A stretch of DNA of 47,101 nt, taken from positions 1-47,101 of the forward strand of contig JAIRNC010000058.1 of NCBI GenBank assembly GCA_031258255.1, given 5' to 3'. Shown here piece after piece: positions 4,195 through 38,420 of the stretch (its first letter is position 1; each line of letters begins with the position of its first letter). This DNA is from Synergistaceae bacterium (GTDB lineage: Bacteria; Synergistota; Synergistia; Synergistales; Synergistaceae). The notes under the pieces were generated by a model that was given only the letters and a program-made list of their open reading frames with translations, was not told the origin of the DNA and ran no database searches. The position numbers and the translations under genes are program-made.

Positions 4195-4196
4195 CT

Positions 4197-5375: not shown

Positions 5376-5387
5376 TTTATTTTCCCC

Positions 5388-9235: not shown

Positions 9236-9236
9236 A

Positions 9237-11690: not shown

Positions 11691-11699
11691 GCGCCTTTT

Positions 11700-12734: not shown

Positions 12735-12758
12735 GGATTCCTCACCTTGCCTTTTTAG

Positions 12759-12939: not shown

Positions 12940-12972
12940 TTAGATTTGCTGGCATCGCTCTGCCGCCATGAA

Positions 12973-13026
12973 AGTATAAAATTTATATGTAACAACCATG
13001 TGAATGTTTCGTGTTTTTTGTGTAAA
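12973..13026 (-). promoter_or_regulatory. Candidate Pho-box array and -10 for the phn operon
   Basis: Read on the minus strand, hexamers TTTACA (13026-13021), AACACG (13015-13010), TTCACA (13004-12999) and GTTACA (12993-12988) repeat with an 11-bp period. A TATACT -10 follows 9 nt later (12978-12973). The layout matches PhoP boxes of the TTHACA-N5 type, known to control phosphate-starvation genes in Gram-positive bacteria. The second hexamer is weak. Confidence 0.5.
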
Positions 13027-13038
13027 ATCCTCGCCGTA

Positions 13039-13067
13039 TTGACAGGCGTCAGCCAATCGGGATAAAA
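13039..13067 (+). promoter_or_regulatory. Likely promoter of trmB
   Basis: TTGACA at 13039-13044 is followed 17 nt later by ATAAAA (or GATAAA after 16 nt). It is about 85 nt upstream of the trmB start and divergent from the phn promoter. Confidence 0.45.
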
Positions 13068-13150
13068 CTTGCCTTGCCCTTACGCTTGGGCTAAAATGAC
13101 GAAGGGCTTGCGATGCCCCGTTTCAACATATCAGACAGGGGTTATGGGCG

Positions 13151-19576: not shown

Positions 19577-20069
19577 CCATCTCCCTCCTTCCCCCGGTTT
19601 TTATGGCAATTGCCTTGAGTTCGTCTATCTTTTGGACGGCAGCCTCTCCGCCCATGCCAAGACGAAGCCTGGTCGCCAGTATCACTGCCTCCAGAGCGGC
19701 GTTGCGGGCCCTGTTGAACGGGACGAAGTGACGCCGCTCGCCCCGGTCCAAGATCTGGCACTTGACGCTCCACTGCTCCTCACCGGACACCTTCCGTGAC
19801 GAGACGACCTCGATATCCCACCAGCAGGGGACGCCATCCAGCACATTCCCCCGCGCCGGCGGGCGCACGTCCGTGAGGGCGGTTATCGCAAAGAGCATTG
19901 CGTCGTCCGCGAAATTCAGCGTCCCGGCTTTATGCTCCAGCAGGGCTTGCCCCGTCCTGCTCGAAAAGAACGGCCGTATCTCGACCGCGCGCGCGTCAAA
20001 AAACGAATCCACCATCGCGCCCATCGGCACGAATCTCGACCCGGCGCCAAGGATCGCCTCCAGCGTCAC
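19542..20069 (-). CDS. DUF447 family protein of the H4MPT gene set
   Basis: 175 residues matching the DUF447 (COG2457) pattern: an N-terminal FVPMGAMVDSFFDARAVEIR, then TGQALLEHKAGTLNFADDA, a flavin-reductase-like split barrel, and a C-terminal helical part. DUF447 genes occur with H4MPT genes in archaea and methylotrophic bacteria; the function is unproven. The start is GTG 20069, overlapping the previous stop as GTGA, with GGGGGGT upstream; the ORF-track start at 20084 is less likely. Confidence 0.8.
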   Translation of the reverse strand: MTLEAILGAGSRFVPMGAMVDSFFDARAVEIRPFFSSRTGQALLEHKAGTLNFADDAMLFAITALTDVRPPARGNVLDGVPCWWDIEVVSSRKVSGEEQWSVKCQILDRGERRHFVPFNRARNAALEAVILATRLRLGMGGEAAVQKIDELKAIAIKTGGRREMDAFKLIQSSIA

Positions 20070-21514: not shown

Positions 21515-22627
21515 TCACAGTCCGCACTCTCTCCATACCTTGGCAGCCTCGTCAGCGAGGCGTGCCATGACGCGGGCGTCGCTTTCGAGATTTGGCGTTA
21601 TCGCGGTGCATATAGGCGCGCCCTCCGGCAGGAGGGACCCGGGATGCGGTATGTCGTGCCTGGAATAATTGTACCATGTCCCCGTGTCCGGGGCTGTCAG
21701 GTTTGAAGGCGCGTATATGATCCCCTTGCCCCTGAACGGGCCGTCCAGCAGCCCGTCTCTCTCCTGCGGCAACCGGCCATCGAGCGCGTCCAAGTGAAGG
21801 CTGAATATGTTGACGCCGTAGAGCAACTCCACCAGCTCGAACGAGGCGCTTATGCGAGGGTTGATCTCAAGGAGCCAGAGCTTGTCGCCATCGTACATGA
21901 AGTCGGCCCCGGAAGCGCCACGGAGCCCAAAATAAGACGCTATTTCCCTTGCCGCCCTCCGCAGTTCGGCCAAAAGGGCGCCCCTCCTGGACGTCTCCGC
22001 CTCGAAGGGCATGATGTTGCCGCACCATGCGAAGCCCGAGGCGCCCAGGGCGCGTTCCCCGGCGAGCTGTCTGCTTGTGCCGCACAGGACGGCGCTCTTG
22101 CCGTCCGCTAAAAAGACGATGGAGAGTGGGATCCCTTCGATGCGCTCCTCAATGTACTCACCGTCACGGATTTTTAATCCCGAATCCCACTCCCTCACGC
22201 CGGTCCCCGCCCCGCTTTTGAACCGTTTGACGAGGCAGCGCGAATCGACAGAAAATTCCTCGCCGGGCGCGGGGAAATACGTCCTCGGCCTCGAAAAACC
22301 GCCCCTGGCGCAGAGCTTATCCAGTTCGCGCTGATCCCTGCAACGCCTGACGGACTCCAAGGGCGGGGAGAAAACGCGCACGCCGCTCTCCTCAAGCTCC
22401 GCAATGGACTCCGGGCGATTCTCTATCCCAGAGGCGAACACGGCGCCGTCCACGTCAAGGCCAGACGCGACAGTCCCGAGAGGCTGGGATTTATCCCTCC
22501 TGCGCCAGGAGGCGATTTTTTTGAGGTCGCGATCCCCGAACGAATCCACTGCCACCGGCTCGTGTCCGGCCCTCGCTACGGACTCGGCCACAGCCCTCGC
22601 GCTCGCCCCCAGCACAAGGACCCTCAT
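21515..22627 (-). CDS. ATP-grasp ligase of the H4MPT operon (Orf17-like)
   Basis: 370 residues with ATP-grasp features: N-terminal Rossmann-like VLVLGASARAVAESVARAGH, a lysine-bearing KRFKSGAGTGVREW, YIEERIEGIPLSIVFLADG, and metal-binding DKLWLLEINPRISASFE. ATP-grasp proteins of this kind (COG2232) accompany H4MPT genes in methylotrophs (Orf17) and methanogens. It may ligate an amino acid or hydroxyglutarate-like group to methanofuran or H4MPT, but the substrate is unknown. It starts 3 nt after the mtdB stop. Confidence 0.82.
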   Translation of the reverse strand: MRVLVLGASARAVAESVARAGHEPVAVDSFGDRDLKKIASWRRRDKSQPLGTVASGLDVDGAVFASGIENRPESIAELEESGVRVFSPPLESVRRCRDQRELDKLCARGGFSRPRTYFPAPGEEFSVDSRCLVKRFKSGAGTGVREWDSGLKIRDGEYIEERIEGIPLSIVFLADGKSAVLCGTSRQLAGERALGASGFAWCGNIMPFEAETSRRGALLAELRRAAREIASYFGLRGASGADFMYDGDKLWLLEINPRISASFELVELLYGVNIFSLHLDALDGRLPQERDGLLDGPFRGKGIIYAPSNLTAPDTGTWYNYSRHDIPHPGSLLPEGAPICTAITPNLESDARVMARLADEAAKVWRECGL

Positions 22628-22630
22628 GAG

Positions 22631-23491
22631 CTATTCCGCGGCCTCCTGGGCGAGAGCGTAGATCCCCTCGGTATCTAGGAGAAGCCCCTTCTCCTCGAAG
22701 AGCTTCGCGATGGCGCGATGATGAATTTTCATCTTGAGGCCGCCAATGCCTATCGCGCCAAAGACGATCTTCCCATCCACTTCGCGGGCGCGCCATACGG
22801 CTTCCGTCCCCTCTGCCCCTAGGGGCGGGACGGCGTTCAGGTCGGCTATGACCTTGAGCGTCGGGTGCTCCCTCCAGAGCTTCTCCGACAAGAGCCGTAC
22901 CCCTGCCGCGCCACAGCAGATCACAGCCGCCGCACCGTCGAGTATCGGCGGCGTGTCTTGGTCGCCCCTCATGACGGCGCACTCCGGCGTCTTGCCGAAG
23001 CGCTCCCCTATCGCGTTAGCCGCGCTCCGAGCCTTGTCCATATTCCTGGACGTGATCACTACGGTCGCCCCGAGGTTCAGCAACAGGCCGGCGGAGCGCT
23101 GCCCGACAGGGCCGGTGCCAGATAGGACGGCGACCTTCTTTCCTTTCATATCGCAGCATGAAGCCATGTAATGGACGGCGGCGGCGGATGTGGTGTTGCA
23201 CCCGTTCGGGTCGAACATCACTGAGACGTCGAGCGGCGGCCATTGCGTCTCCCTGACCTTTTTCAGGATCTGCCCCGCTTCCTCTACGCTGGAACCGCCG
23301 ATGAATATCGCCGTGCTGTACAGATCCTTCGGGGATCTGGTGAACATGCAACCGTGCACCAGCGCCGTAACGTTTTCCGGCGTCACGGCACCGTGGCGCA
23401 GCATGACGCAATCGGCGGAATCTAGGGCCGTTACAGCGTCAAAGACGCTCGGCTGTGGATCAGCGTCGAGCTGGAGCAAAATTTTCCGCAT
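22631..23491 (-). CDS. mtdB: NAD(P)-dependent methylene-H4MPT dehydrogenase
   Basis: 286 residues of the MtdA/MtdB family. MtdB oxidises methylene-H4MPT to methenyl-H4MPT with NAD(P). The N-terminus (KILLQLDADPQPSVFDAV), GAVTPENVTALVHGCMFTR, MFDPNGCNTTSAAAV and the nucleotide fold VAVLSGTGPVGQRSAGLL followed by TSRNMDK are all typical. This bacterial-type enzyme differs from the F420-dependent Mtd of methanogens, so the pathway mixes archaeal-like and bacterial parts. It is second in the operon, 69 nt after the DUF2193-like gene with a strong hairpin between. Confidence 0.92.
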   Translation of the reverse strand: MRKILLQLDADPQPSVFDAVTALDSADCVMLRHGAVTPENVTALVHGCMFTRSPKDLYSTAIFIGGSSVEEAGQILKKVRETQWPPLDVSVMFDPNGCNTTSAAAVHYMASCCDMKGKKVAVLSGTGPVGQRSAGLLLNLGATVVITSRNMDKARSAANAIGERFGKTPECAVMRGDQDTPPILDGAAAVICCGAAGVRLLSEKLWREHPTLKVIADLNAVPPLGAEGTEAVWRAREVDGKIVFGAIGIGGLKMKIHHRAIAKLFEEKGLLLDTEGIYALAQEAAE

Positions 23492-23560: not shown

Positions 23561-25078
23561 CTATATCGTCTCTTTGCACTGGCAGTAGCCCTCGAAGGAT
23601 GCGAGAGCGCCCTTGGCATACGGGGCGCAGCGCTTGATGAGGGTGCTGACGGCGCAGTCCTTGCAACCCTTCATCGGGGCGCCAGGCGTACCGGGGTTGA
23701 GAGCCATCATGTTCGTCATGGCGGTAGCCGTGACGCACTCCGGCGTCAGGTAGCACGGGAAGTCCGACAGGGACATGAGCGCCGCGAAGCGCTGTGTGAT
23801 GGCGCAAGCGGGATAAGTGTAGCGCTGTGGGTTAGAGATGACCGGGTGCTTCGTGACCGGCGAGAAATCAAGCTCGATCCCCTTGATCTTGCCGCCCTTG
23901 TCGATAATGGACTCGCCCCTCTTGAGGATGTCCATGAAATCGACGTTGTGGAGCTCATCGGCCTCTCCGCGCTTCGGGTTGATCGCCGCGTAGTTGTGGA
24001 AGCGCTTTACCAGCAGGTCAACCAGCATAGGCACGTTAAACGCGTCGAGCGCCAACACGCAAGCCGCTGCGGCAGCCGGAGCGCCCGTGGCGGCGGCGAC
24101 GACGTCCCACCCGCTCTTGAACGCGCCTATTTCGAGCCCCTTCTTCAACGTGGCGGTGAACACCTGCGTGACGGCCTCGTATATGGCGAATACCATGTCG
24201 TCCTTGAACATATTGTACGCGGACTGCGCTATATGGTGGCCGATGTCGCCGACGCAGTACGCCGGCACGGTGACGATATTGGCCGGGTGTACGCCGGCCT
24301 TGAACGCCGCCTCTACGACCGGCCTCATCCTCTTGCTGTAGCCATCCATGTATTTGCCTAGGTCGAACGAAGAGTGGGGGCCGTGCCCGCCGAGGTTATG
24401 GGTGGCCATGAGCTCCTTCTGGGCGGCCTTCGGCTGGTCGTACAGGCGCTGCAGCTGCGCTACCTCCGCGGCTTCTGCCTCCCCTGCCGTTTTCCCGGAC
24501 TCGATGGCGGCCCTGAACGCGGCGCCCAGGCCATAGGACGTGTTCATCCCCCAGGATTTGGAGGCGAGCAACGTCTCCTTATCCTTCTGCGGGATGTCCA
24601 GCGGCTTCAAGATCCTGTTCACCAGGTTCGGGACGGAGCCGACCGAGAAACCGAAGTCAACGACGCAGGTAGGCCCGTACATCCCGCCGTAGCGGCGGAC
24701 CGCCTCCAGCCCGATAAGGGCTTTGTTGGCGCCGATGGCGTCAATGAATTTCTTCGTGGACGCCTTGAAGGCGGGATCCAGCTCGAACAGGATCTCGAGG
24801 ATGGGCGGGGTCTGGTGGTGCTCGATAAACGGGTCGTCCTCCGGACGAATGGTATCGGTGATCTCCTTTAACACCTCGTAGTGAGCGTTGACTGACTGGA
24901 CGTGGAGTTCGAATATCTCCTTGCTCTGCCCCTCCGTCGGCTTCATGGCGTTGACGGCATCCACATACGGCTTGGCATCCGCTATCTTGAACGTCCCGCC
25001 TCTTTTTTCCTTTATTACGTTAAAATCCGCCTCTGCCGCTCCGATACATTCCTTCACCATTTTTTCCTGCAAACTCAT
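23561..25078 (-). CDS. DUF2193-like protein, first gene of the H4MPT operon
   Basis: 505 residues. It resembles the archaeal DUF2193 family from memory of its length and N-terminal style (VIKEKRGGTFKIADAKPYVDAV), but this should be checked. No membrane segment or signal is visible. Possible metal or redox residues cluster in NLGGHGPHSSFD, DIGHHIAQS, FPCYLTPEC and a C-terminal KGCKDC, with more cysteines in the last 25 residues (KRCAP, YCQCK). An Ala-rich helix lies near residue 320. It has the best promoter in the operon, a structured leader, and a stable hairpin behind it, all suggesting high expression. Function unknown; a catalytic C1 role is only inference. Confidence 0.6.
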   Translation of the reverse strand: MSLQEKMVKECIGAAEADFNVIKEKRGGTFKIADAKPYVDAVNAMKPTEGQSKEIFELHVQSVNAHYEVLKEITDTIRPEDDPFIEHHQTPPILEILFELDPAFKASTKKFIDAIGANKALIGLEAVRRYGGMYGPTCVVDFGFSVGSVPNLVNRILKPLDIPQKDKETLLASKSWGMNTSYGLGAAFRAAIESGKTAGEAEAAEVAQLQRLYDQPKAAQKELMATHNLGGHGPHSSFDLGKYMDGYSKRMRPVVEAAFKAGVHPANIVTVPAYCVGDIGHHIAQSAYNMFKDDMVFAIYEAVTQVFTATLKKGLEIGAFKSGWDVVAAATGAPAAAAACVLALDAFNVPMLVDLLVKRFHNYAAINPKRGEADELHNVDFMDILKRGESIIDKGGKIKGIELDFSPVTKHPVISNPQRYTYPACAITQRFAALMSLSDFPCYLTPECVTATAMTNMMALNPGTPGAPMKGCKDCAVSTLIKRCAPYAKGALASFEGYCQCKETI

Positions 25079-26537: not shown

Positions 26538-26763
26538 TTCAAGCTAATTAAAATAATCCTTAACTTCACTTTGGAAATGATACGCAGTGGCTGCTTCTGG
26601 CAACGGAGAGAGGGGTGGGCCGTATACGCTGATTTGTTAAAAGTTGCCTTGAAGCTATAAAGTGGCGGCTCGCTGTCATGCGAATAGTTCGCTATTCAGG
26701 TGTTTTACGCCCTCAGTTCCATCCGAGAGAACGAGGCAGACAATTACGGAGGAGTGAGATTAG

Positions 26764-26853
26764 GTGGAGAACTTATTGGCATTGACGGAACAGGGGCGTT
26801 TTTCATCCCATGGACTGTGCGAGCGGATTTACGCAGCGGACAGGGACTGGTGA
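26764..26853 (+). CDS. Small ORF (29 aa) directly upstream of the GPH transporter
   Basis: GTG 26764 has an excellent GGAGGAG ribosome site 9 nt upstream and a 29-codon frame (MENLLALTEQGRFSS...) ending 5 nt before the transporter ATG. It is too short for the ORF track. It could be a leader peptide coupling translation into the transporter, or the 5' relic of a deleted gene. I do not recognise the peptide. Confidence 0.4.
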   Translation: MENLLALTEQGRFSSHGLCERIYAADRDW

Positions 26854-26858
26854 ATCAG

Positions 26859-28355
26859 ATGCCTGACAAATCAGAGCAGACCACAGAGACATCGACCAAG
26901 AAGGTCCCCTTTTCAACGAACCTCGCCTATGCCATAGGCGGGTTCCCGGATTTTTTCCCGTACAACCTCTTCTACATCTATTTCCTCTTCTTCTTCACCG
27001 ACATAGCCGGGTTCGACCCCGGCATCGGCGGGACGATCTGCATGATCGTGATCATCTGGGACGCGGTCACCGATCCTATGGTAGGCTACCTGTCCGACAA
27101 CTCCAAATCGAAGCGGGGCAGGAGGAGGCCCTTCATGGCCGCCGCGCTGATCCCTCTGGCGGTCACGACTGTGATGCTCTTTTCGACATTCGAGATGACC
27201 CAGAGGGGCGCTTTCTTTTACTACCTGACCATCGGCCTCCTGCTCTGGACGTTCTTCACAATGTACGACATCCCTTACTACGCGCTGGGAGCGGAGTTGA
27301 CGGACGATTTCGACGAACGGGGCAATATGCGCATAATCCTCGGCGTCCCGATGTTCGTCGCCGGGTGGATCGAATACGCCGGCCCCATGTTCATCTGGGA
27401 CTGGGTGTCGAAATTAGGCATGGATAAATACCTATGGATGAATTCCGACCAGTTCGCGTGGTTCTTGTCCGCCCTCATCCTGGAAACTATAGCGGTGGCC
27501 TGCGGGTATTACTGCATCCGGAAGACCAAGGGGACTGAGCTCATAGACAGGGATCCCGAAAAGGCGGCCAGAAATATGGTGAGCGGCAAGCAATTCATAA
27601 AAAATTACATCGAGCTCTGCCAGGACAGGTCGGTGAAATGGCTGTCTCTTTTTGCCGCCTCGGGCAGCTTCGTATACGCGATAGCGCAGGGCAGCTTCGT
27701 ATACCTGATGGCGAACAATTTAGGGCTCTCCGAGTCGATGCAGGGGACTTACTGGACGTTTGACGCGCTTATCGCGCTGGCGCACCTGCCGCTCATGAAT
27801 TACATCTCGCGCAGGCTCGGCAAGAAACAGTGCGTGTTGCTTTATACGCTCATAGCGAGCGCGGGCTGCTTTGCGTTCTTCTTTATAGGGATAAGGAGTT
27901 TCCTGTATCTGTGCATATTCGATGTCTGCTACCTCTTCTTCAGCACGTCGTTCTGGACAGTCGGAAGCGCCCTCGTGCTGGACTGTGGCGAAGTGGACGA
28001 ATTTGTCACGGGGCAGAGGCGAGAGGCGGCGATTCAGGGCAATTTCTCCTTTGCCACGAAGATCGGCGCGGCGGCGGCCACGTTTTTCAACGGCTGGATG
28101 CTCGAACTGCTGGGCTACGACGGGATGGCCCAGGAACAGACCGCCCAGACACTGCGCGGCATCCTGACGCTGAACACCCTCGTGCCGGCCATCATGCTCA
28201 TCGTCACCGCCACTCTACTCGTAATGTACCCGATAAACAAGAAGAACTACAACCTACTGCTGAACGCCCTCGCGCAGAAGAAGGAGGGCAAGCCCTACAG
28301 CACGGAGGGCTTTGAAAAACTGCTGCCGGCGAACTTCGACCACAGCCATCCCTGA
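26859..28355 (+). CDS. GPH-family cation symporter (MFS_2)
   Basis: 498 residues with about 12 membrane segments. The pattern NLAYAIGGFPDFFPYNLFYIYFLFF, then DAVTDPMVGYLSDNSKSKRGRRRPFM, is that of glycoside-pentoside-hexuronide:cation symporters. A late DCGEVDEFVTGQRREAAIQG segment also fits. The start is ATG 26859; the ORF-track extension to 26700 runs through leader sequence. It stops 31 nt before fmdD, so it is probably in the fmd operon. The substrate is unknown; linkage suggests it may import a C1-yielding organic compound, which is inference. Confidence 0.85.
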   Translation: MPDKSEQTTETSTKKVPFSTNLAYAIGGFPDFFPYNLFYIYFLFFFTDIAGFDPGIGGTICMIVIIWDAVTDPMVGYLSDNSKSKRGRRRPFMAAALIPLAVTTVMLFSTFEMTQRGAFFYYLTIGLLLWTFFTMYDIPYYALGAELTDDFDERGNMRIILGVPMFVAGWIEYAGPMFIWDWVSKLGMDKYLWMNSDQFAWFLSALILETIAVACGYYCIRKTKGTELIDRDPEKAARNMVSGKQFIKNYIELCQDRSVKWLSLFAASGSFVYAIAQGSFVYLMANNLGLSESMQGTYWTFDALIALAHLPLMNYISRRLGKKQCVLLYTLIASAGCFAFFFIGIRSFLYLCIFDVCYLFFSTSFWTVGSALVLDCGEVDEFVTGQRREAAIQGNFSFATKIGAAAATFFNGWMLELLGYDGMAQEQTAQTLRGILTLNTLVPAIMLIVTATLLVMYPINKKNYNLLLNALAQKKEGKPYSTEGFEKLLPANFDHSHP

Positions 28356-28386: not shown

Positions 28387-28728
28387 ATGGCAGCCAAACA
28401 GGGTTTTTTGATCACGGTGCGCACGGCCAAGCAGGGCAACGCGATGGAGAGGGGCAAATATTGCGCCGATTACGTCGCGGAGACCGCAACGCTCACCCTC
28501 AGCCCTCGTGATTACCAGGAACTGGCGTTGAAGGAGGGGCAGAGAGCGCGCGTCCGCAGCGATTCCGGCCAGGTGCTGGTCACATGCCGCAGCGCGGAGG
28601 GGCCGGACGGCGTGTTCTTCTTGCCATTGGGCCCGACGGCCAACGAGCTGATCGGCGAGCAGACCTACGGCACCGGCGTGCCGAGCTATAAAGGCTTTAC
28701 GGTGGAAATAGAAGCTGCGCAGGAGTAG
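28387..28728 (+). CDS. fmdD: Formylmethanofuran dehydrogenase subunit D
   Basis: 113 residues forming a molybdopterin-dinucleotide-binding beta-barrel domain. The segment VFFLPLGPTANELIGEQTYG then TGVPSYKG matches the end of archaeal FwdD/FmdD. In methanogens this domain caps the bis-pterin Mo or W cofactor of subunit B. The hydrolytic Fhc complex of methylotrophs lacks it, so its presence argues for a redox-active enzyme. The ATG follows GGGAGGT; the ORF-track start at 28312 lies inside the transporter gene. Confidence 0.85.
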   Translation: MAAKQGFLITVRTAKQGNAMERGKYCADYVAETATLTLSPRDYQELALKEGQRARVRSDSGQVLVTCRSAEGPDGVFFLPLGPTANELIGEQTYGTGVPSYKGFTVEIEAAQE

Positions 28729-28798
28729 GAAAGGGCTATATATAAATCAGCCTTTCCCAAAGGGCAGGCTGTCTTGTTTATGGAAGGGATGACGCGCC

Positions 28799-30097
28799 AT
28801 GACTGTAACTGTCCATAAAGACGTCGTATGCACCTTTTGCGGCGCGCTGTGCGACGATCTGGAGATGCATGTGGAGGACAACCGGGTGATCGACGTAAAA
28901 AACGTCTGCGGCATCGGCCGCAGCAAGGCGCTCCACGGCGACAACGACAAGCCAGAGTGCCGCGTCTATGGGATGCCTGCCACGCTGGAGCGGGCCTATG
29001 ACGCGGCGGCGGAGATTTTGAGCCAGGCAAAATCACCGCTGGTCTACGGGTTCAGCAGCACGGTGGCCGAGGCGAACCGAGTGGGGGTAGAGCTGGCGGA
29101 GATACTGCGCGCCGGCCTCGACAACTGCTCCAGCTACTGCCACGGGCCGGGGGTGCTCGCCCGTCAGCACGTGGGCCTGCCAACCTGTACCCTGGGTGAG
29201 GCCAAGAACCGCGCCGACCTGGTGGTGTTCTGGGGCGCCAACCCCATGGAAAGCCACATGCGCCATTTCAGCCGTTATTCGGTGCAGGCCAAGGGCATGT
29301 ACACGCCGCTCGGGCGCAAGGACCGCAAGTTAGTCGTGGTGGACGTGAGGCCCACCCCCAGCTCCAAGAACGCCGATTTATTCTTCCAGGTGATCCCCGG
29401 GAGCGATTATGAGATCGCCACCGTGCTGCGGGCGCTGGTCTGCGAACTGCCCTTGCCCACGCTCACCGACGACAGCCTGGTGGGCGGGGTGCCGCTGTCC
29501 AGATGGCGGGAACTCGTTGGGCTGCTCAGGGAATGCAAATACGGCGTGGTGTTCTTCGGCATAGGGCTGACCCAGAGTCAGGGCAAAGATTTAAACGTGG
29601 AGCAGCTGATCCGCCTGGTCAGCGACTGCAATCGCTACACGCGCGTCTACGCCATGCCGATGCGCGGACATGCCAACGTCAACGGCAACAATCAAGTGTT
29701 CGTCTGGCAGACGGGATATCCGCTGGCGATCAGCTTCAATCGCGGCTATCCGCGCTTCAACCCCGGAGAGTTCAGCGTTATCGACATGCTCAACCGCGGC
29801 GACGTGGACGCCGCGCTGATCGTGGCCACTGACCCGGCCGCCCATCTGCCTCACACCGCGGTCGAGGGGCTGAAGAAGATCCCCACGATCGTCTTGGATC
29901 CGGTCAACTCCCTGACCACGGCGTGGGCGGATGTGGTCATCCCCGTAGCCACGTCCGGGCTGAGCGCGGACGGCACCTACTACCGCATGGACAACGTGCC
30001 CATTCGCCTGCGTAAAATCCTCGACTGCGAGTGGCCTGCGGATTTGGAGGTCTTGCAACGGATAAAGGAGAGGGTTCTCCATGCTAAAAATCATTAA
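28799..30097 (+). CDS. fmdB: Formylmethanofuran dehydrogenase subunit B (catalytic, Mo/W)
   Basis: 432 residues, homologous along its length to archaeal FwdB/FmdB. It reduces CO2 to formate, or the reverse, at a Mo/W-bis-pterin site. All four 4Fe-4S cysteines are present (C11, C14, C18, C37, in VVCTFCGALCDDL and NVCGIG). The metal-ligand cysteine is also kept (C114 in SSYCHGPG), a position lost in bacterial FhcB as I recall. Further matches are FWGANPMESHMRH and AMPMRGHANVNG. It overlaps fmdA by 17 nt. No polyferredoxin subunit (FwdF/FwdG) is encoded nearby, so the electron partner is unknown. Confidence 0.92.
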   Translation: MTVTVHKDVVCTFCGALCDDLEMHVEDNRVIDVKNVCGIGRSKALHGDNDKPECRVYGMPATLERAYDAAAEILSQAKSPLVYGFSSTVAEANRVGVELAEILRAGLDNCSSYCHGPGVLARQHVGLPTCTLGEAKNRADLVVFWGANPMESHMRHFSRYSVQAKGMYTPLGRKDRKLVVVDVRPTPSSKNADLFFQVIPGSDYEIATVLRALVCELPLPTLTDDSLVGGVPLSRWRELVGLLRECKYGVVFFGIGLTQSQGKDLNVEQLIRLVSDCNRYTRVYAMPMRGHANVNGNNQVFVWQTGYPLAISFNRGYPRFNPGEFSVIDMLNRGDVDAALIVATDPAAHLPHTAVEGLKKIPTIVLDPVNSLTTAWADVVIPVATSGLSADGTYYRMDNVPIRLRKILDCEWPADLEVLQRIKERVLHAKNH

Positions 30098-31730
30098 CGG
30101 CGCCCTTTACGACCCTGCCCAGGAAATCAACGGCCAGATCAGGGCCGTGTGCGTCGGCGACGACGGCAAGATCCGCGATGCGCCGCCTGAAGGGCAGCCA
30201 TGCGAGACCGTCGATGCCGCTGGCTGTGCGGTGATGGCGGGCGGCGTCGATATCCACAGCCATATCGCCGGCACCAAGGTCAACAGCGCGCGCAGCATGT
30301 GTCCGGAGGATCATTACGACCATTTCAAGCCACACACGGCCACGACCAGGGCCGGAACCGGCTTTACCGTGCCAACCAGCTTCTACACGGGCTATGAGTA
30401 CGCCGGGCTTGGCTACACCACGGTGTTCGAGGCGGCTGTCCCGCCCCTGGAAGCCCGCCACGCCCATGAGGAGCTGCTGGACGTGCCGATTATCGATACC
30501 GGCGCCTATACGCTGATGGGCAACAATTACATGGTCATGCAGATACTCGCGGAGGAGGATCCCGTAGGGCGCAGGGAGCGGCTGCGCGATTTGATCTCCT
30601 GGCTGCTTGAGAGCACAAAGGGATACGCAGTCAAGGTGGTCAACCCAGGCGGGGTGGAGAGCTGGAAATGGGCTCAGGGCATACAAAACCTGGACACGCC
30701 GATCCCGCCTTTCGGGGTGACGCCGCGACAGATCATGACGGGCCTGGCAGAGGCGGTCCGCGACCTCGGGCTGCCTCACGGTATGCACTTGCACTGCAAC
30801 CACCTGGGCGAGGCCGGCAACTACATAACCACGCTGGAAACCATGCGGGCGCTAGACGGCCTGCCCGTTCACATGACCCACCTGCAATTTCACGCTTACG
30901 GCCAAAACAAAAAGGGCACGCTCAAGTCAGCGGCCCGGGAACTGGCTGATTATATCAACGAGCACCCCAACGTCACCTGCGACGTAGGGCAGCTGGTCTT
31001 CGGCCCTGCCACTACCATGACCGCCGACGCGCCGATGCAGTACCGTCTGCACGTGGTGACCGGCCATAAGTGGATCAACAACGACGTTGAGATGGAGTCC
31101 GGCGCGGGTGTGGTTCCGCTCCAGTATAAGCCGAAGTCTCTGGTAAACGCCATCCAGTGGTGCATCGGGCTGGAATTGCTGCTGCTGGTCAAAAACCCGT
31201 GGCAGATCGTGCTGACCACCGATCACCCCAACGCCGGGCCTTTTTCCGCTTATCCGCAGATCATCCGTCTGCTCATGGACCGCGATTACCGCGCCTCGCA
31301 GATGGAGGCGCTGAACCCGCGCGTCGGCAAGCACACCGTGCTGTCGCAGTTGTCGCGCGAGTATACGCTGGAGGAGATCGCCGTCATAACGCGGTCCGCC
31401 GCCGCCAGGGCGCTGGGGCTGGCGCAAAGGGGCAACCTGAGCGTCGGTTCCTGCGGCGATATCGCCATCTACCGCGTTCAGGAGGACAAGGAGCGGATGT
31501 TCAGGCAGCCCGCGTACGTATTCAAGGACGGCGCGCTGGTCGTGCGCGACGGCACGGCCGTGCAAAGCCCGCAGGGGCGGCGGCTGCTGGTGCGGCTCGG
31601 CGACGCGGCCCTTCCAGATGACCTGGCGCAGGAATTCCACAACTACTACTCCATCACCCTGGCCAACTTTCCTGTGCAGGATGAATACACTCCCAGACCG
31701 GAGGTGATCCCATGCAAAAAAACGGCGTGA
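30081..31730 (+). CDS. fmdA: Formylmethanofuran dehydrogenase subunit A (amidohydrolase)
   Basis: 549 residues, the binuclear-metal amidohydrolase subunit that condenses formate with methanofuran. Metal-site motifs are complete: GGVDIHSHIAG, the lysine (to be carboxylated) in YAVKVVNPGG, HLHCNHLG, HMTHLQFHAYG and LTTDHPNAGPF. The ATG follows AAGGAGAGGG and overlaps fmdB by 17 nt; the 3' end overlaps ftr by 19 nt. It is the size of FwdA/FhcA (about 550-570 aa). Confidence 0.94.
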   Translation: MLKIINGALYDPAQEINGQIRAVCVGDDGKIRDAPPEGQPCETVDAAGCAVMAGGVDIHSHIAGTKVNSARSMCPEDHYDHFKPHTATTRAGTGFTVPTSFYTGYEYAGLGYTTVFEAAVPPLEARHAHEELLDVPIIDTGAYTLMGNNYMVMQILAEEDPVGRRERLRDLISWLLESTKGYAVKVVNPGGVESWKWAQGIQNLDTPIPPFGVTPRQIMTGLAEAVRDLGLPHGMHLHCNHLGEAGNYITTLETMRALDGLPVHMTHLQFHAYGQNKKGTLKSAARELADYINEHPNVTCDVGQLVFGPATTMTADAPMQYRLHVVTGHKWINNDVEMESGAGVVPLQYKPKSLVNAIQWCIGLELLLLVKNPWQIVLTTDHPNAGPFSAYPQIIRLLMDRDYRASQMEALNPRVGKHTVLSQLSREYTLEEIAVITRSAAARALGLAQRGNLSVGSCGDIAIYRVQEDKERMFRQPAYVFKDGALVVRDGTAVQSPQGRRLLVRLGDAALPDDLAQEFHNYYSITLANFPVQDEYTPRPEVIPCKKTA

Positions 31731-32632
31731 TGATCGAGGATACCTTTGCCGAGGCCTTCGGTATGCGCGGCTGCCGCCTCACCGTCACAGGGCCGAGCGA
31801 TCACTGGGCGCTCACCGCGGCGCGGGCCATTACCGGCTTCGCCACGTCGGTGATCGGCTGCGGCATCGAGGCTGACGTGGAGGGGCCTAGCCCGGCAACA
31901 CCTGACGACAGGCCCGGCTACGACTGCCTGTTTTTCGCCAATTCCTGGGACGGGCTGGCTAACGCCCTGCTCAACAGGGTCGGACAGGCGCTGATGACGT
32001 CGGTGGGGTCAGCCTGTTTCTGCGGGGCGCTGCCTGAAATCGCGCCAGACAGCGAAGATATCAGCCCCTTCGACATAGGCGGCAAGCTGCGCTTCTTCGG
32101 CGACGGCTATCAGTGCAGCAAAGTCATCGGCAACACGCGCTACTGGCGGGTGCCTGTCATGGACGGCGAGTTTTTGGTCGAAGAGACGTTTTTGATGATC
32201 AGGGCCGTGGGGGGAGGCAACTTTTTGCTGCTGGGGCCGAGCCACGCCGCCACCTTGGCTGCGGCTGAGGCCGCAGTGGCGGCCATCCGCCAACTGCGAG
32301 GCGTGGCGCTGCCCTTTCCCGGCGGCATGGTGCGCAGCGGCAGCCAGGTGGGCTCGCGCTACAAGTTCCTCAAGGCTTCAACCAACATATCGTATTGCCC
32401 GACAATCCGCGGCCGCCTGTCCGGCAGCGCGTTGCAGGAAGGCGACAACGCCGTGCTGGAGATCGTCATAGACGGCTTGACCGAAGCGCTGGTGGCCCAG
32501 GCCATGCGCGTCGGCATCGAGGCCGCCTGTGCTTGCGGCGGCATCCGCAAAATCACAGCCGGCAATTACGGCGGCAAGCTGGGCAAGTTTCATTTCCACT
32601 TGCATCAACTATTGGCAGGTGACGAGCGATGA
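31712..32632 (+). CDS. ftr: Formylmethanofuran:H4MPT formyltransferase
   Basis: 306 residues, normal for Ftr/FhcD. It moves the formyl group from methanofuran to N5 of H4MPT, linking the Fmd complex to Mch. Recognisable parts: IEDTFAEAFGMRGCRLTVTG, FPGGMVRSGSQVGSRYKFL, and KITAGNYGGKLGKFHFHL near the end. It has the strongest ribosome site in the operon (GGAGGTGAT before ATG), overlaps fmdA by 19 nt and fmdC by 4 nt (ATGA). Confidence 0.95.
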   Translation: MQKNGVMIEDTFAEAFGMRGCRLTVTGPSDHWALTAARAITGFATSVIGCGIEADVEGPSPATPDDRPGYDCLFFANSWDGLANALLNRVGQALMTSVGSACFCGALPEIAPDSEDISPFDIGGKLRFFGDGYQCSKVIGNTRYWRVPVMDGEFLVEETFLMIRAVGGGNFLLLGPSHAATLAAAEAAVAAIRQLRGVALPFPGGMVRSGSQVGSRYKFLKASTNISYCPTIRGRLSGSALQEGDNAVLEIVIDGLTEALVAQAMRVGIEAACACGGIRKITAGNYGGKLGKFHFHLHQLLAGDER

Positions 32633-33459
32633 GGGTGATCGATTTACGCCTGACGCGGGAACCGAATCTGCCATTAGAGGCGGAACGGCTGCGCCCGGAC
32701 TCGCTGGAGCAGACGACCTTGGACGAAATATACGCCTTGCCGCTGCTGTACGGCAATCAAACGGCGGAGGCCGGAGAGTTTTTGCGGGGCGAAATACGGG
32801 AGACGGGTGACGCGCCTGGCGTCTCGCTGATTCTGCGCGGCGATTTCAGGCGGGTGAAACGTCTGGGACAGGGAATGCAGAGCGGCGAACTGATCATCGA
32901 GGGATCGTGCGGCTTCCACGCCGGCGCCGAGATGGGCGGCGGCAGGATCACCATACGCGGCGACGCGGGGGATTGGCTTGGCGCGCACATGACAGGCGGG
33001 GTTATCCGCGTCGAGGGCAGCGCGGGGCATTGGGCCGGGGCCTCTTATCGGGGCAAAACCCAAGGGATGCGCGGCGGCGCCATAATCATCCACGGCAACG
33101 CCGGACGGATGACCGGCACCAAGATGCGCGGCGGTTTGATCGTAGTGAACGGCGACTGCCTCGAGTTTCCGGGGTACGACATGAACGCCGGGACAATCCT
33201 GATAGCGGGGCATAGCGGACGGCATATCGGCAGCGGCATGGTGCGCGGCACCATCATAGTCCGGGAGGGGCACGACCTGCTGCCGACCTTTTACCATGAC
33301 TGCACATATCAGCCTCCTTTCTGGCAGTTGATGCGCTCTTATATCGAGACGCAGGGCCTCGTGCTGGATGGCTGGGATGTCGATTGCTTCTTTGACCGTT
33401 ACAGCGGCGAGGCGATGACCGGAGGCAAGGGAGAGGTGCTGCTGTGTCACACGGCTTAA
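32629..33459 (+). CDS. fmdC: Formylmethanofuran dehydrogenase subunit C
   Basis: 276 residues. A series of glycine-rich repeats (GGGRITIRGDAGDWLGAHM, GGVIRVEGSAGHWAGASY, GGAIIIHGNAGRMTG, and so on) form the GXGXG beta-helix found in FwdC/FhcC and in glutamate synthase C-terminal domains. FwdC is a structural subunit of the complex. It begins at ATGA overlap with ftr and ends 19 nt before the RimK-like gene. Confidence 0.92.
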   Translation: MRVIDLRLTREPNLPLEAERLRPDSLEQTTLDEIYALPLLYGNQTAEAGEFLRGEIRETGDAPGVSLILRGDFRRVKRLGQGMQSGELIIEGSCGFHAGAEMGGGRITIRGDAGDWLGAHMTGGVIRVEGSAGHWAGASYRGKTQGMRGGAIIIHGNAGRMTGTKMRGGLIVVNGDCLEFPGYDMNAGTILIAGHSGRHIGSGMVRGTIIVREGHDLLPTFYHDCTYQPPFWQLMRSYIETQGLVLDGWDVDCFFDRYSGEAMTGGKGEVLLCHTA

Positions 33460-33478: not shown

Positions 33479-34366
33479 ATGTCTCCCAGCCATGGGAAGA
33501 TCGGCATTCTAGGCACAGCTAAAGGCGAACAGACCATATTGCTGCAACGGGCGCTCAAAGCCCGTGGCGCGGCTGTACAGATCATACACCCCAAAAAACT
33601 CAGCTGCTGGCTGCCGGGCGAGACGGTGGGAGTCACGGCTGCGGAGGAGACGGTGCGTCTGCTCGATCTGCGGGGGCTGGTGGTGCGCTGGCTGCCGGGC
33701 GGATCCCTGGAACAGGTGGTGTTCCGGCTGAACGCGCTTCATCGCCTGGAGCAGAGCGGGCTGCGCGTGATCAACAGCGTGGACACGTTGGAGCGGACGG
33801 TCGACAAATACTACACCACGTCGCTGCTGGCTTCGACCGGACTGCCGGTGCCGCGCACATTGGTGACCGAGCGTTACGACGACGCGATGCGGGCTGTCCG
33901 GGAGTGGGGTTCTGTGGTTATAAAGCCCGTGTTCGGCTCACAGGGGCAGGGGATGGTGCGGGTCGATGACCCGAATATGGCTCACCGCGTGCTGCGCGCC
34001 CTGGAGATGGGGCGCTACCTTTATTACGTGCAGGAATACTTGCCCCACGAGGGCGTGGATTACCGGCTGTTCGTCATCGACGGACGGGTGACGGGCGCTA
34101 TGCGCCGCCGCTCCGAGAACTGGTGCACCAACATCGCCTGCGGTGGCCAGGCTGAACCCTTTGAGGCCCCAGATTCCTTCTGCCAGCTGGCTTTAGCGGC
34201 CTCAGATCTGCTGGGTGCGGATTATCTGGGAGTGGACATCCTGTGCAGCGAGGGCAGCCCCTATCTGCTCGAAGCCAACGGAATCCCCGGCTGGCTGGGC
34301 TTGCAGACAGTGCTAAAATGCGATATTGCGGACGAACTGGCCGCGTTTATTCTGGGGGTGTGCTGA
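33479..34366 (+). CDS. RimK-family glutamate ligase (MptN-like) of the fmd operon
   Basis: 295 residues with ATP-grasp features of the RimK family: SVVIKPVFGSQGQGMVRV, YVQEYLPHEGVDYRLFVIDG, and LGVDILCSEGSPYLLEANGIPG at the metal site. RimK relatives add glutamates; MptN of methanogens adds one to H4MPT, and methylofuran of methylotrophs carries a polyglutamate tail. In this operon it is likely to glutamylate methanofuran or H4MPT, but the acceptor is inference. It is the last gene before a strong terminator. Confidence 0.82.
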   Translation: MSPSHGKIGILGTAKGEQTILLQRALKARGAAVQIIHPKKLSCWLPGETVGVTAAEETVRLLDLRGLVVRWLPGGSLEQVVFRLNALHRLEQSGLRVINSVDTLERTVDKYYTTSLLASTGLPVPRTLVTERYDDAMRAVREWGSVVIKPVFGSQGQGMVRVDDPNMAHRVLRALEMGRYLYYVQEYLPHEGVDYRLFVIDGRVTGAMRRRSENWCTNIACGGQAEPFEAPDSFCQLALAASDLLGADYLGVDILCSEGSPYLLEANGIPGWLGLQTVLKCDIADELAAFILGVC

Positions 34367-34618: not shown

Positions 34619-34660
34619 GCGTGTCTCGTGCAGGTTTTTTATTTTAGGGGGGTGACACGC
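34619..34660 (+). promoter_or_regulatory. Inverted repeat enclosing the moeA ribosome site
   Basis: GCGTGTC (34619-34625) and its exact complement GACACGC (34654-34660) surround the moeA Shine-Dalgarno AGGGGGGTG, with the second arm directly touching the ATG. This could be the expression platform of the upstream RNA, controlling translation. A T-rich tract also lies in the loop. Confidence 0.5.
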
Positions 34661-35884
34661 ATGAAAACGATGCTCAGTTTGGACGAAGCGTCCGAAATCA
34701 TGTCGGGAATATGCCAAGCTACTGGCACAGAAAGCGTGGAGCTGATGGAGGCGCTCGACAGGGTGCTGGCGGAGGATGTCCGTGCGGCTGAAGACATCCC
34801 GCCCTTCGACCGCTCGCCTTTCGACGGGTATGCCCTGCGGGCGGCGGATCTGGCATCGGCCTCAGCGGAGCAGCCGGCGACGCTCCGCGTCACAGAGGAG
34901 ATCCCGGCCGGAAATACGCCTGCGCGCACAGTGAATCCCGGACAAGCGGCAAAGATCATGACCGGCTCGCCGATTCCTCCCGGCGCTGATTGCGTGGTAA
35001 AATTTGAGGAAGTCAGCGCTGAGGGCGCGCATGTGATCGTCTCCGCACCGTTCCCGTCAGGCCGAAACATCATCCCGGCAGGCGAGGATATGGGGAAGGG
35101 GGCGATGGCGGCTCAAAAAGGCACCGTGATCAATCCAGCTATGATCGGTCTGCTGGCTTCATTGGGGATCCAGGATGTCCCCGTATACCTGCGGCCTAAA
35201 GTGGCGATCCTCAGCACCGGCAACGAAATCGTACCCACCGGCGCGGCGGTTTTGCCTCCTGGTAAAATCCGCGACAGCAGCGCGTTCGCCTTGGCCGGCG
35301 CCTTGCGGACGAATGGGGCGGCACCGCTTTTTCTGGGCATCGCGCGGGATGAGGCGGAAGTTATCGGAGAGGCGATCGAGGATGGGCTGCGGGACGCCGA
35401 TATGGTGATCACGACTGGCGGCGTCTCTGTCGGGGATTACGACATGGTCAAGGAGGCTGTCCGACAAATCGGCGCAGACGCCCTTTTCTGGCGCATCCGC
35501 ATAAAGCCGGGCGCTGCGATTCTGGCGGCGCTGAAGCACGGCAAGCTGATCCTGTGCCTTTCAGGCAACCCGGGCGCTGCGATGATCAGCTTCCAACTGC
35601 TCGCCGCGCCGTTTATCCGGCGGATCGCTGGTCATGCCCGGTGGCAGAACAGGGAGATCGACGTGACTTTAAAAGAGGGGTTTAAGAAACCTAGCCTATG
35701 CAAGCGTCTGGTGCGCGGCCATCTCGTCATCGAAGACGGACGCGCCGTCATGTCCGTGACCGAAAATCAGGGGAACGGCGTTCTGAGTTCATTCATTGGC
35801 GCCGACCTCCTGGGAGCGATCCCGGAAGGCAGCGGCCCTGTCCCCCCAGGGACGCGCATCAAAGCATACATGACGGGCGGCTAA
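34661..35884 (+). CDS. moeA: Molybdopterin molybdenumtransferase MoeA
   Basis: 407 residues, normal for MoeA, which inserts molybdate or tungstate into adenylated molybdopterin. Motifs: FDRSPFDGYALRAADL, PAGEDMGKGAMA, TTGGVSVGDYDMVKEAV, LCLSGNPGAAMISF. The start is ATG 34661; the ORF-track start at 34628 lies within the leader repeat. It opens a group with an AOR-family gene and mobA, supplying cofactor to enzymes such as Fmd. Confidence 0.93.
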   Translation: MKTMLSLDEASEIMSGICQATGTESVELMEALDRVLAEDVRAAEDIPPFDRSPFDGYALRAADLASASAEQPATLRVTEEIPAGNTPARTVNPGQAAKIMTGSPIPPGADCVVKFEEVSAEGAHVIVSAPFPSGRNIIPAGEDMGKGAMAAQKGTVINPAMIGLLASLGIQDVPVYLRPKVAILSTGNEIVPTGAAVLPPGKIRDSSAFALAGALRTNGAAPLFLGIARDEAEVIGEAIEDGLRDADMVITTGGVSVGDYDMVKEAVRQIGADALFWRIRIKPGAAILAALKHGKLILCLSGNPGAAMISFQLLAAPFIRRIAGHARWQNREIDVTLKEGFKKPSLCKRLVRGHLVIEDGRAVMSVTENQGNGVLSSFIGADLLGAIPEGSGPVPPGTRIKAYMTGG

Positions 35885-35946
35885 CGATAGGCGGCAGGGC
35901 CAATGAAATCAAGTGCCGTATATGATCAATTATCAGGCAGGTGTTC

Positions 35947-37836
35947 ATGGTGAGCAGCTTTGTTTTTCCTGATGCCGTTATTTTGAACGTAGACCTAGGG
36001 CGGGGGACCGTGCGGCGTGAAATTATACCAGGCCGGGACTACAGGCTGTATCCTGGCGGTTCTGCCCTGGCTGTTCGCCTCCTGCTAGAAAAGATGAACC
36101 CTGGCGTGGACGCGCTCTCCCCCGGCAATCCGCTCGTCTTTGCCGTTTCCCCATTTACCGGGCTGCCGGCTGCGGGGTTGAGCCGCATAGCGGCGGCCGC
36201 CAAGAGCCCTCTCTCGGGAGGCGTCGGCGACAGCCAGGCCGGTGGGTTCCTGCCGGCCGAGTTCGCGGCGAACGGACTCAGCGCCTTGGTCGTGAGCGGC
36301 AGGTCGGAACGGCCCGTGTACCTCCATCTAAAGGACGGCACCGCCGAGATCAGGCCGGCTGGGCATATATGGGGGATGACTACAGGCGACGGGGAGGATG
36401 CCATCCGCAGCGAACTGGGCGACGTCGAGATAGCGCAGATAGGGCCTGCGGGCGAGAGGCTGGTGCGCTTCGCGTGCATCGTACACAACTGCTCCAGGGC
36501 CAACGGCAGGACCGGCATAGGCGCAGTGATGGGCGCAAAAAATCTCCGCGCCCTCGCCGTATCCCGCGCCACAAAACCTCGCCCGGCTGACCCGGAGGCT
36601 TTCAGCGACATAAACCACAGGCTCGCGGGAAAGCTGAACGATCCCTTCTGGAAGGATTTCAAGGACACCGGCACCCCTGGCAACGTGGAACCACTGCGCG
36701 ACATGGGCTATCTGCCTAAAAACAACTACAGCAGCGGCTGGTTCCCGGATTTCAAGGACATCCGCATAAAGGGGGGCGGGAAATGTTACGTCTGCCCCTT
36801 GGCGTGCAAGCGCGTCGCGGAAAAATCGCCAGGCGTGGAACCTCGCTACGGCGGCCCTGAGTACGGCACCATAGCGGCGGTGGGTTCGTATTGCGGGATA
36901 ACCTCGGGCGAATCCATAAAAATATCGCACCAGATATGCAATATGTACGGGATGGACACGATCTCCTGCGGCGCGACCGTATCGTTCGCCCTAGATTGCT
37001 TTTCAAGGGGGATGATCTCCGAAAGGGAGGCCGGGATGAAGCTCTCTTTCGGGGACTCCGAATCGGTTCACCGGCTCATGATGATGGTGGCGAAACGCGA
37101 GGGCATCGGGGACGTATTGGCAGAGGGCAGCGCGAGGGCCGCTCAGATCATAGGGAGGGGCGCACCCGACCTCGTTACCGCCACGAAGGGACAGGAACTC
37201 CCGGCTCACATGCCCCACTTTAAACCGTCATTGAGCCTGATATATGCTGTGAACCCCGGAGGGGCGGATCATCAGTCCAGCGAGCACGACACGATGCTCT
37301 TTGCGCAGGAGGGCAGCTCCGCCCGTAGCTGGCTCTCGTCCCTGGGGGTGAGCGACGAAAGTTTCAGGAAGCCGAGTTCACGGAAGGATAAAGAGGACAC
37401 GATGGGGATTGACGAGTCCAGGGTACGATTCGCCATACTGACCCAGCGCTTTTATTCCCTGCTCGACACGCTCTGCCTCTGTCAGTTCGTATGGGGGCCG
37501 AGCTGGCAGGCTCTGGGGCCTGGGGATGTACTGGACATGGCCTCGTCTGGCATAGGGTGGGAGACGTCCATCGAGGAACTGATGGAAATCGGGGAGAGGA
37601 AGCTCAACATGATGCGGCAGTTCAACGCCAGGGAGGGTTTCACCAAGGACGACGACACCCTGCCGCGCCGCTTTTTCGAACCACTGCCGGACGGCCCGTC
37701 CAAGGGGGCGCGAATCGACAGGCGTAATTTCGACGAGGCGCGAGAGCTCTATTACTCCTTAGCCGGGTGGGACGCGTCCACTGGTAACCCTACCCCGGAA
37801 AAGCTCAAGTCACTATCGCTGGAATGGCTCTTATGA
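35947..37836 (+). CDS. Aldehyde:ferredoxin oxidoreductase family tungstoenzyme
   Basis: 629 residues (631 if the GTG at 35941 is used). N-terminal VDLGRGTVRREIIP and the PGGSALAVRLLLE region fit the AOR pterin-binding domain. Cluster cysteines are visible in CYVCPLACK (CX2CX3C) and in LLDTLCLCQF near the C-terminus. Such enzymes oxidise aldehydes, or reduce acids, with ferredoxin using a W-bis-pterin. Substrate specificity cannot be inferred. It overlaps mobA by 4 nt (ATGA), tying it to cofactor synthesis. The first 30 residues before the domain are ordinary. Confidence 0.92.
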   Translation: MVSSFVFPDAVILNVDLGRGTVRREIIPGRDYRLYPGGSALAVRLLLEKMNPGVDALSPGNPLVFAVSPFTGLPAAGLSRIAAAAKSPLSGGVGDSQAGGFLPAEFAANGLSALVVSGRSERPVYLHLKDGTAEIRPAGHIWGMTTGDGEDAIRSELGDVEIAQIGPAGERLVRFACIVHNCSRANGRTGIGAVMGAKNLRALAVSRATKPRPADPEAFSDINHRLAGKLNDPFWKDFKDTGTPGNVEPLRDMGYLPKNNYSSGWFPDFKDIRIKGGGKCYVCPLACKRVAEKSPGVEPRYGGPEYGTIAAVGSYCGITSGESIKISHQICNMYGMDTISCGATVSFALDCFSRGMISEREAGMKLSFGDSESVHRLMMMVAKREGIGDVLAEGSARAAQIIGRGAPDLVTATKGQELPAHMPHFKPSLSLIYAVNPGGADHQSSEHDTMLFAQEGSSARSWLSSLGVSDESFRKPSSRKDKEDTMGIDESRVRFAILTQRFYSLLDTLCLCQFVWGPSWQALGPGDVLDMASSGIGWETSIEELMEIGERKLNMMRQFNAREGFTKDDDTLPRRFFEPLPDGPSKGARIDRRNFDEARELYYSLAGWDASTGNPTPEKLKSLSLEWLL

Positions 37837-38420
37837 CCACCCCAGAGACGATGAGCGCCGTCGTGCTGGCAGGCGGGCGCAGCAGCCGCATGGGATCCGA
37901 TAAGGCGCTGCTCAAGTGGGGAGAGAAAAATTTCCTGGAGACGATACTCCGGGCGCTCTCGATGTTTCCCGACGTCATGATATCGGCAGCGGACAAGGAA
38001 AGCTACAGATGGGCTCACGCAAGAGTCGTAGCGGACATCTACCGAGACACCGGGCCGGTCGGGGGCATCTACTCGTCCTTGGTCGCCAGCGAACGGGATT
38101 ACCTCTTCGTCACGGCGTGCGACACGCCTCTTTTGAGCGCCTCCCTGATCGGCGAGATATGCCGCGCCGCCGAGGGGTGCCACTGTTGCGTGGCCCGCGA
38201 CGAAAACGGCCTTGTGCACTCCCTCTGCGGCGCCTATCACAAAAGCATGATACCGATATTCAAGGATCAGATAGAGAAGGGGCGCTACAAGATCGCGCTG
38301 GCCTACGACAAGGTGACGATCAAATATCTCGACCTCTCCCCACGGCAGTCAGCAGAACTCAGGAATTTCAACACGGAAGGGGAATACAAGAAGCTGATCG
38401 GTTCGTCCGGGCCAGCGTAG
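37833..38420 (+). CDS. mobA: Molybdenum cofactor guanylyltransferase MobA
   Basis: 195 residues. The nucleotide-binding N-terminus VVLAGGRSSRMGSDKALLKW is diagnostic of MobA, and DTGPVGGIYSSLVAS and VTACDTPLLS follow as in the family. It adds GMP to molybdopterin to make the dinucleotide form needed by bis-MGD enzymes such as Fmd. The start at ATG 37833 overlaps the AOR stop; an upstream ATG at 37824 lies inside the AOR gene. Confidence 0.92.
   Translation: MTTPETMSAVVLAGGRSSRMGSDKALLKWGEKNFLETILRALSMFPDVMISAADKESYRWAHARVVADIYRDTGPVGGIYSSLVASERDYLFVTACDTPLLSASLIGEICRAAEGCHCCVARDENGLVHSLCGAYHKSMIPIFKDQIEKGRYKIALAYDKVTIKYLDLSPRQSAELRNFNTEGEYKKLIGSSGPA

Follow-up and report, generated by a model that had tools for sequence, protein, structure and literature searches.

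We analyzed a 47,101-nucleotide stretch of DNA (the window), contig JAIRNC010000058.1 of the Synergistaceae bacterium assembly GCA_031258255.1, which carries at 28387 to 33459 a five-gene operon for a formylmethanofuran dehydrogenase (Fmd) and a formyltransferase (Ftr). Judged from its genes, this locus probably encodes a redox-active molybdenum or tungsten (Mo/W) enzyme, FmdABCD, that would act with Ftr in a reversible one-carbon (C1) path on tetrahydromethanopterin (H4MPT), with a net direction that may be mostly oxidative. The textbook view of redox-active formylmethanofuran dehydrogenase is that of an archaeal enzyme of methanogenesis. Here it is one part of a complete H4MPT island carried by anaerobic, nonmethanogenic bacteria, found across six family-level groups of Synergistota, and its partner is an MtdB-type rather than an F420-dependent dehydrogenase. 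The window's own genome (G000) is a metagenome-assembled genome (MAG) of 130 contigs that is 85% complete; genes missing from it are taken as no more than suggestive of absence.

The five proteins D, B, A, Ftr, and C are encoded separately and on the forward strand, and the open reading frames (ORFs) together with family profiles confirmed this gene order as proposed in an earlier reading made from the sequence only. FmdD, the molybdopterin-dinucleotide-binding subunit (28387 to 28728, with its ATG at 28387; 113 amino acids [aa]), contains the Pfam domain PF01568 (Molydop_binding; 44.1 bits, cutoff 26.8) and matches solved FwdD chains in the PDB with E values of 1e-14 to 1e-16 (8rja_D, E = 1.4e-16), which bears out its original assignment to that domain. 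Its top NCBIfam match is the FwdD model NF042908, under the cutoff of that exception model. FmdB, the predicted catalytic Mo/W subunit (28799 to 30097; 432 aa), reached 512 bits against TIGR03129 (cutoff 328) and matches 5t5i_B. The amidohydrolase subunit FmdA (30081 to 31730; 549 aa) scored 720 bits against TIGR03121 (cutoff 393), the formylmethanofuran:H4MPT formyltransferase Ftr (31712 to 32632; 306 aa; PF01913 and PF02741) 374 bits against TIGR03119 (cutoff 293), and FmdC (32629 to 33459; 276 aa) 247 bits against TIGR03122 (cutoff 131). From fmdB through fmdC, neighboring genes overlap by 4 to 19 bases. Ratios of nonsynonymous to synonymous substitution (dN/dS) in the fmd genes were 0.05 to 0.14, by which measure these genes are under purifying selection.

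The residues that would form the redox site are all in place. The whole of FmdB aligned with FwdB of 5t5i (E = 3e-122; 45.3% identity), and C11, C14, C18, C37, and C114, which the sequence-only reading had named as cluster and metal ligands, coincide with ligand residues in five archaeal FwdB chains of known structure (5t5i and four others). C114 falls on the cysteine of the archaeal CHGP motif, C118 in the usual FwdB numbering; at the equivalent position, 9sfi shows a residue X, presumably selenocysteine. These five ligands are invariant across 20 Synergistota FmdBs. In FmdA, H59-x-H61, K185, H236-x-H238, H267, and D381 are conserved as in solved FwdA, and we take the columns of H59, H61, K185, H238, H267, and D381 to be the dinuclear metal site with the carboxylated-lysine position. 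Ligands, FmdD, and hydrolase residues together support a bacterial Mo/W enzyme that is redox active, as had been predicted. With archaeal Fwd/Fmd (PDB 5t5i, 8rja, 9sfi, 9sw6, and 7bkb), the window shares subunits A to D, the catalytic residues of A and B, and FmdB identities of 37 to 45%. The earlier description of the enzyme as methanogen-like has to be qualified: the partner dehydrogenase is the bacterial-type MtdB, and G000 gave no match for F420-type Mtd, FrhB, or the methanofuran synthase MfnB.

Part of the same gene set occurs in the Fhc complex of Proteobacteria, which likewise has A, B, Ftr (FhcD), and C. We compared five plasmid loci, from Azoarcus, Thiodictyon, Paraburkholderia, Azospirillum, and Rhizobium, all encoding A, B, Ftr, and C; in Azospirillum, MtdB, Mch, and beta-RFAP synthase adjoin, as they do in the window. 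None of these five loci has FmdD, and in every one the metal-ligand cysteine of B is replaced by A, S, or N, whereas the window has both. To this extent the contrast drawn in the sequence-only reading held; it did not hold for the four N-terminal cysteines, which are kept in four of the five Fhc B subunits (Rhizobium lacks them), so that FmdD and C114 discriminate between the two types and the four cluster cysteines do not. At the plasmid locus examined in Methylocystis heyeri, only the A subunit was present. An Fhc-like hydrolase, in which FmdB and FmdD would be purely structural and formyl-H4MPT would end as free formate, could appeal to the operon order and the Ftr and FmdA homology common to proteobacterial fhc operons, and to partner genes, MtdB and Mch, that are those of methylotrophs. 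We nevertheless consider it very improbable and reject it, because FmdD and C114 are both present and the FmdB ligands are intact and under purifying selection, where the five Fhc loci have lost FmdD and the ligand cysteine. Lower still, to the point of being negligible, is the probability that archaeal genes were misassembled or misbinned into a bacterial contig, or that the locus is a decayed transfer. The fragmented and incomplete state of the source MAG would allow such an artifact. However, the island is flanked by bacterial genes (a carbon-phosphorus [C-P] lyase operon, TrmB, RsmD, CoaD, GlmS, Der, and butyrate kinase), and three other Synergistaceae MAGs, the closest named records, carry the same genes with FmdB 91 to 95% identical. 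Going by the MAG names, the bacterium may come from a termite gut. Moreover, FmdB exceeded the family cutoff in 22 of 188 Synergistota genomes, distributed over the six family-level groups; some of these assemblies consist of 1 to 8 contigs, and they include the cultured Acetomicrobium hydrogeniformans. The dN/dS values are also far below 1. An archaeal or chimeric contig is thus rejected, and the contig is bacterial (Synergistaceae), as the sequence-only reading had presupposed.

The rest of the H4MPT island lies on the reverse strand in a divergent operon. Its first gene encodes a DUF2193 protein (23561 to 25078; PF09959, 713 bits), followed by an MtdB-like NAD(P)-dependent methylene-H4MPT dehydrogenase (22631 to 23491; PF09176, 91 bits), an ATP-grasp protein that is kept in the operon across Synergistota (21515 to 22627; PF02655), a dihydropteroate synthase (DHPS)-like candidate for methanopterin biosynthesis (20066 to 21460; TIGR00284, 200 bits, below cutoff), a DUF447 protein (19542 to 20084; PF04289/PF20766), beta-RFAP synthase of H4MPT biosynthesis (18506 to 19576; TIGR00144, 160 bits, cutoff 113), the methenyl-H4MPT cyclohydrolase Mch (17495 to 18460; TIGR03120, 372 bits, cutoff 229), a CitG-like triphosphoribosyl transferase that is a conserved neighbor (16477 to 17439; PF01874), and the MptA GTP cyclohydrolase of methanopterin biosynthesis (15510 to 16556; TIGR00294, 264 bits, cutoff 220). 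On the forward strand, fmdC is followed by a RimK-type ATP-grasp ligase (33479 to 34366), an MptN-like candidate H4MPT:glutamate ligase whose top NCBIfam match is MptN (229 bits, cutoff 350) and which exceeds the cutoff of rimK_fam. MtdB, Mch, Ftr, and H4MPT biosynthesis genes are all in this one island, and as annotated its two operon halves together cover the C1 steps between methylene-H4MPT and CO2 as well as a large part of H4MPT biosynthesis.

With MtdB and Mch, methylene-H4MPT would be interconverted reversibly with methenyl-H4MPT, formyl-H4MPT, formyl-(methano)furan, and finally CO2 plus two electrons. The dinuclear metal site of FmdA would hydrolyze or form the formyl-furan bond, formate would move within the complex from FmdA to FmdB, and FmdB with FmdD would hold a Mo/W-bis(molybdopterin guanine dinucleotide) cofactor that interconverts formate and CO2. 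Through the 4Fe-4S cluster of FmdB, electrons would reach a carrier of low potential that is probably ferredoxin. Consistent with such an enzyme, genes for the Mo/W cofactor insertion protein MoeA (34628 to 35884, forward; MoeA Pfam domains) and a MobA-like protein of molybdopterin guanine dinucleotide biosynthesis (37824 to 38420, forward; PF12804; top NCBIfam matches MobA, below cutoffs) lie downstream of the fmd operon. What the sequence itself shows is the gene content, the selection, and the conservation of the ligands and the operon; from these we infer the catalysis, the identity of the furan cofactor, the electron acceptor, and the direction. Run mostly in the oxidative direction, the path would dispose of C1 units and recover NAD(P)H and reduced ferredoxin, although reduction of CO2 to C1 units would also be possible. 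Of 21 genomes searched for CdhC/AcsB, almost all of them FmdB carriers, 19 gave no match; acetyl-CoA synthesis therefore cannot be fed by the path in most carriers, and this favors C1 oxidation or anaplerosis. MtdB is part of the oxidative pathway in methylotrophs. We therefore favor C1 oxidation over CO2 reduction as the direction.

Several observations weigh against this proposal. No source of the furan carrier is apparent in the window's genome or its close relatives: MfnB, missing from G000, was not found in G155, G156, or G149 either, and most other FmdB carriers, including genomes that are 98 to 99% complete, gave no match. MfnB is present in two genomes of the Acetomicrobium group (G011 and G015), and in G011 it clusters with a HisA/HisF-related protein, MfnF, and an ATP-grasp protein weakly matching MfnD (L091, 9009 to 13185); by this gene content, some Synergistota probably make methanofuran. 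The formaldehyde-activating enzyme Fae had no match in G000, which leaves the entry of C1 units unaccounted for, and for this reason we do not class the island as the classical formaldehyde oxidation pathway. Unlike archaeal Fwd/Fmd, the window showed no FwdF/FwdG-type electron-transfer subunits near the operon or among the island's annotated genes (no genome-wide search for them was made).

The alternative of a mainly reductive path, in which ferredoxin and NAD(P)H would drive CO2 to methylene-H4MPT either for biosynthesis or as a Wood-Ljungdahl methyl branch feeding carbon monoxide dehydrogenase/acetyl-CoA synthase (CODH/ACS), seems to us fairly unlikely. G000 does carry CODH/ACS genes (L096, 2355 to 14670; G000:C31), namely CooS, an AcsB-AcsD fusion, AcsC, RACo, and CooC-like ATPases. 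The cluster recurs in G156 of the same genus (fusion of 1155 to 1157 aa in the two genomes; 1157 aa in G000) and had no counterpart in the other 19 genomes searched. In addition, the one other FmdB-like protein found in G000 is dimethyl sulfoxide (DMSO)/thiosulfate reductase-like, so that Fmd could be the CO2-reducing entry. However, the link to CODH/ACS is missing: neither methylenetetrahydrofolate reductase (MTHFR; no search for Mer was made) nor an AcsE- or MetH-type pterin-binding methyltransferase was found in G000 and G156 (85% and 93% complete, respectively). The G000 cluster opens with two genes, one of the homocysteine S-methyltransferase family and one of the methionine synthase family (PRK00957, E = 1.9e-10). 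Unlike G000 and G156, their sister genomes G155 and G157 encode MTHFR together with a MetH-like protein, and they lack CdhC. This reciprocal pattern fits a methionine route from acetyl-CoA like that of Dehalococcoides, where acetyl-CoA supplies the methionine methyl group (PMC7005905). Formyltetrahydrofolate synthetase is also present and gives a folate route to C1 units. With CODH/ACS present but MTHFR and AcsE/MetH missing, and with the sister pattern arguing for a role in methionine synthesis, we rejected a Wood-Ljungdahl acetogen; acetogenesis joining Fmd and CODH/ACS is not supported by the gene content. Within the cluster, an ORF at 12579 to 13325 was rejected as a gene, the actual gene being at 12635 to 13738 in another frame.

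The novelty implied by the sequence-only reading did not stand. Redox-type Fmd in bacteria, including Synergistota, is already known, and the window is not its first instance. Fmd A to E, Ftr, and Mch were listed in 2018 for the Synergistetes isolate A. hydrogeniformans (PMC6025917), a redox-type fwdDBA-ftr-fwdC operon with Cys118 was described in 2020 for the Hakuba Actinobacteria (PMC7325909), and a 2023 count gave 149 bacterial FwdBs (PMC10100899). By its published description, the Hakuba operon resembles the window's in its identical D-B-A-Ftr-C order, its N-terminal 4Fe-4S site, Cys118, and the lack of FwdFG, but it was reported without methanopterin biosynthesis genes (PMC7325909), whereas the window's island has MptA, beta-RFAP synthase, and DHPS-like and MptN-like proteins. 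Genome G015 is very probably A. hydrogeniformans OS1. It belongs to the same phylum as the window and has an FmdB with the five ligands intact; unlike the window's genome, it has MfnB. Acetomicrobium also differs in having one operon (DUF2193-MtdB-ATP-grasp-D-B-A-[HPPK-MptA]-flavoprotein-...-Ftr-C-Mch) instead of two divergent ones, and FmdBs of that genus are just 48 to 50% identical to the window's. As a cultured carrier, A. hydrogeniformans makes activity, cofactor, and direction directly testable. What is new is an operon shared across the phylum, an Fmd module that was probably exchanged, the tie of DUF2193 to the island, and the methionine and CODH context.

Three of the Synergistota groups (f3, f4, and f5) share one operon with small variations, in the order DUF2193, MtdB, ATP-grasp, FmdD, B, A, HPPK-MptA fusion, flavoprotein, DHPS-like, DUF447, beta-RFAP synthase, Ftr, FmdC, Mch, MptN, and CitG; in G020, for example, the operon gave no DUF2193 match. 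Gene order in group f11 is partly different. Other Synergistota families have MptA as a fusion with an HPPK domain (L036, 6120 to 7586, and relatives); in the window it is unfused, and the flavoprotein of the other families' operon (PF02441; L036, 5602 to 6159), a candidate dihydromethanopterin reductase, was not seen in the window's island. In G157, a genome of the window's genus that is 93% complete, the full DUF2193-to-MptA operon is present (L089 and L108; G157:C138), with no FmdB match anywhere.

Phylogenies point to separate histories for the two parts of the island. In the tree of Mch, MtdB, the DHPS-like protein, and beta-RFAP synthase, the window's genus and G143, a genome of its own family, are sister groups (support 100/100). 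Approximately unbiased tests rejected this grouping for FmdB (P = 0.0005) and for FmdB, FmdA, Ftr, and FmdC together (P = 0.010). The window FmdB is at least as close to archaeal 5t5i FwdB (45.3% identity) as is that of G143 (43.9%), which argues against mere acceleration. With long branches present, we regard it as no more than likely from these trees that horizontal exchange replaced the Fmd-Ftr module in the window's clade, with the remaining island genes passed down vertically. All Synergistota FmdBs, including the window's, fall on one side of a branch from the five archaeal chains, in a tree that includes no other bacterial redox-type FmdB. No donor was found: a scan of the named genome collection matched Synergistaceae only, and plasmid records held only distant FmdB relatives from Proteobacteria and haloarchaea.

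DUF2193, described in one paper as uncharacterized, conserved in methanogens, and bearing a C-terminal metal-binding motif, gains a strong genomic context from this locus. It occurs in 20 of the 188 Synergistota genomes, 18 of them FmdB positive, and where present it is the first gene of the H4MPT operon. Co-occurrence with FmdB gave Fisher P values of 2e-19 by genome and 4e-6 by genus, both overstated owing to kinship among the genomes. Across families, DUF2193 proteins are 69 to 82% identical to the window copy, compared to 48 to 51% for FmdB. A profile search of the PDB gave no match, and a single-sequence AlphaFold model (predicted local distance difference test score of 38) was useless for the fold. 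Tentatively, DUF2193 might be an unrecognized enzyme of H4MPT-linked C1 metabolism, for example, the one by which carriers lacking Fae load H4MPT with C1 units. Genome G155 holds two copies of DUF2193 on separate contigs (L094 and L095; G155:C122 and C77).

Other genes surround the island. A GPH-type major facilitator superfamily symporter (26700 to 28355, forward; PF13347) lies upstream of fmdD, as it also does in L002, and a protein of the aldehyde:ferredoxin oxidoreductase family, a tungstoenzyme family, is encoded between moeA and the mobA-like gene (35941 to 37836, forward; PF01314/PF02730; PDB 1aor, E = 8e-98). Elsewhere in G000, an MtaA/CmuA-type methyltransferase adjoins the DMSO/thiosulfate reductase-like molybdoenzyme set (L099, 4352 to 9539; G000:C128). 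Directly adjoining the C1 island is the C-P lyase operon for phosphonates (2705 to 12917, reverse), with Phn genes, a PhnCDE-type transporter, a PhnP-like protein, and a 596-aa fusion that contains PhnK and is presumably PhnJ-PhnK. At 364 to 2505 on the forward strand, a 713-aa ORF carries an O-acetylhomoserine sulfhydrylase domain on residues 285 to 712, preceded by about 280 N-terminal residues without an identified domain.

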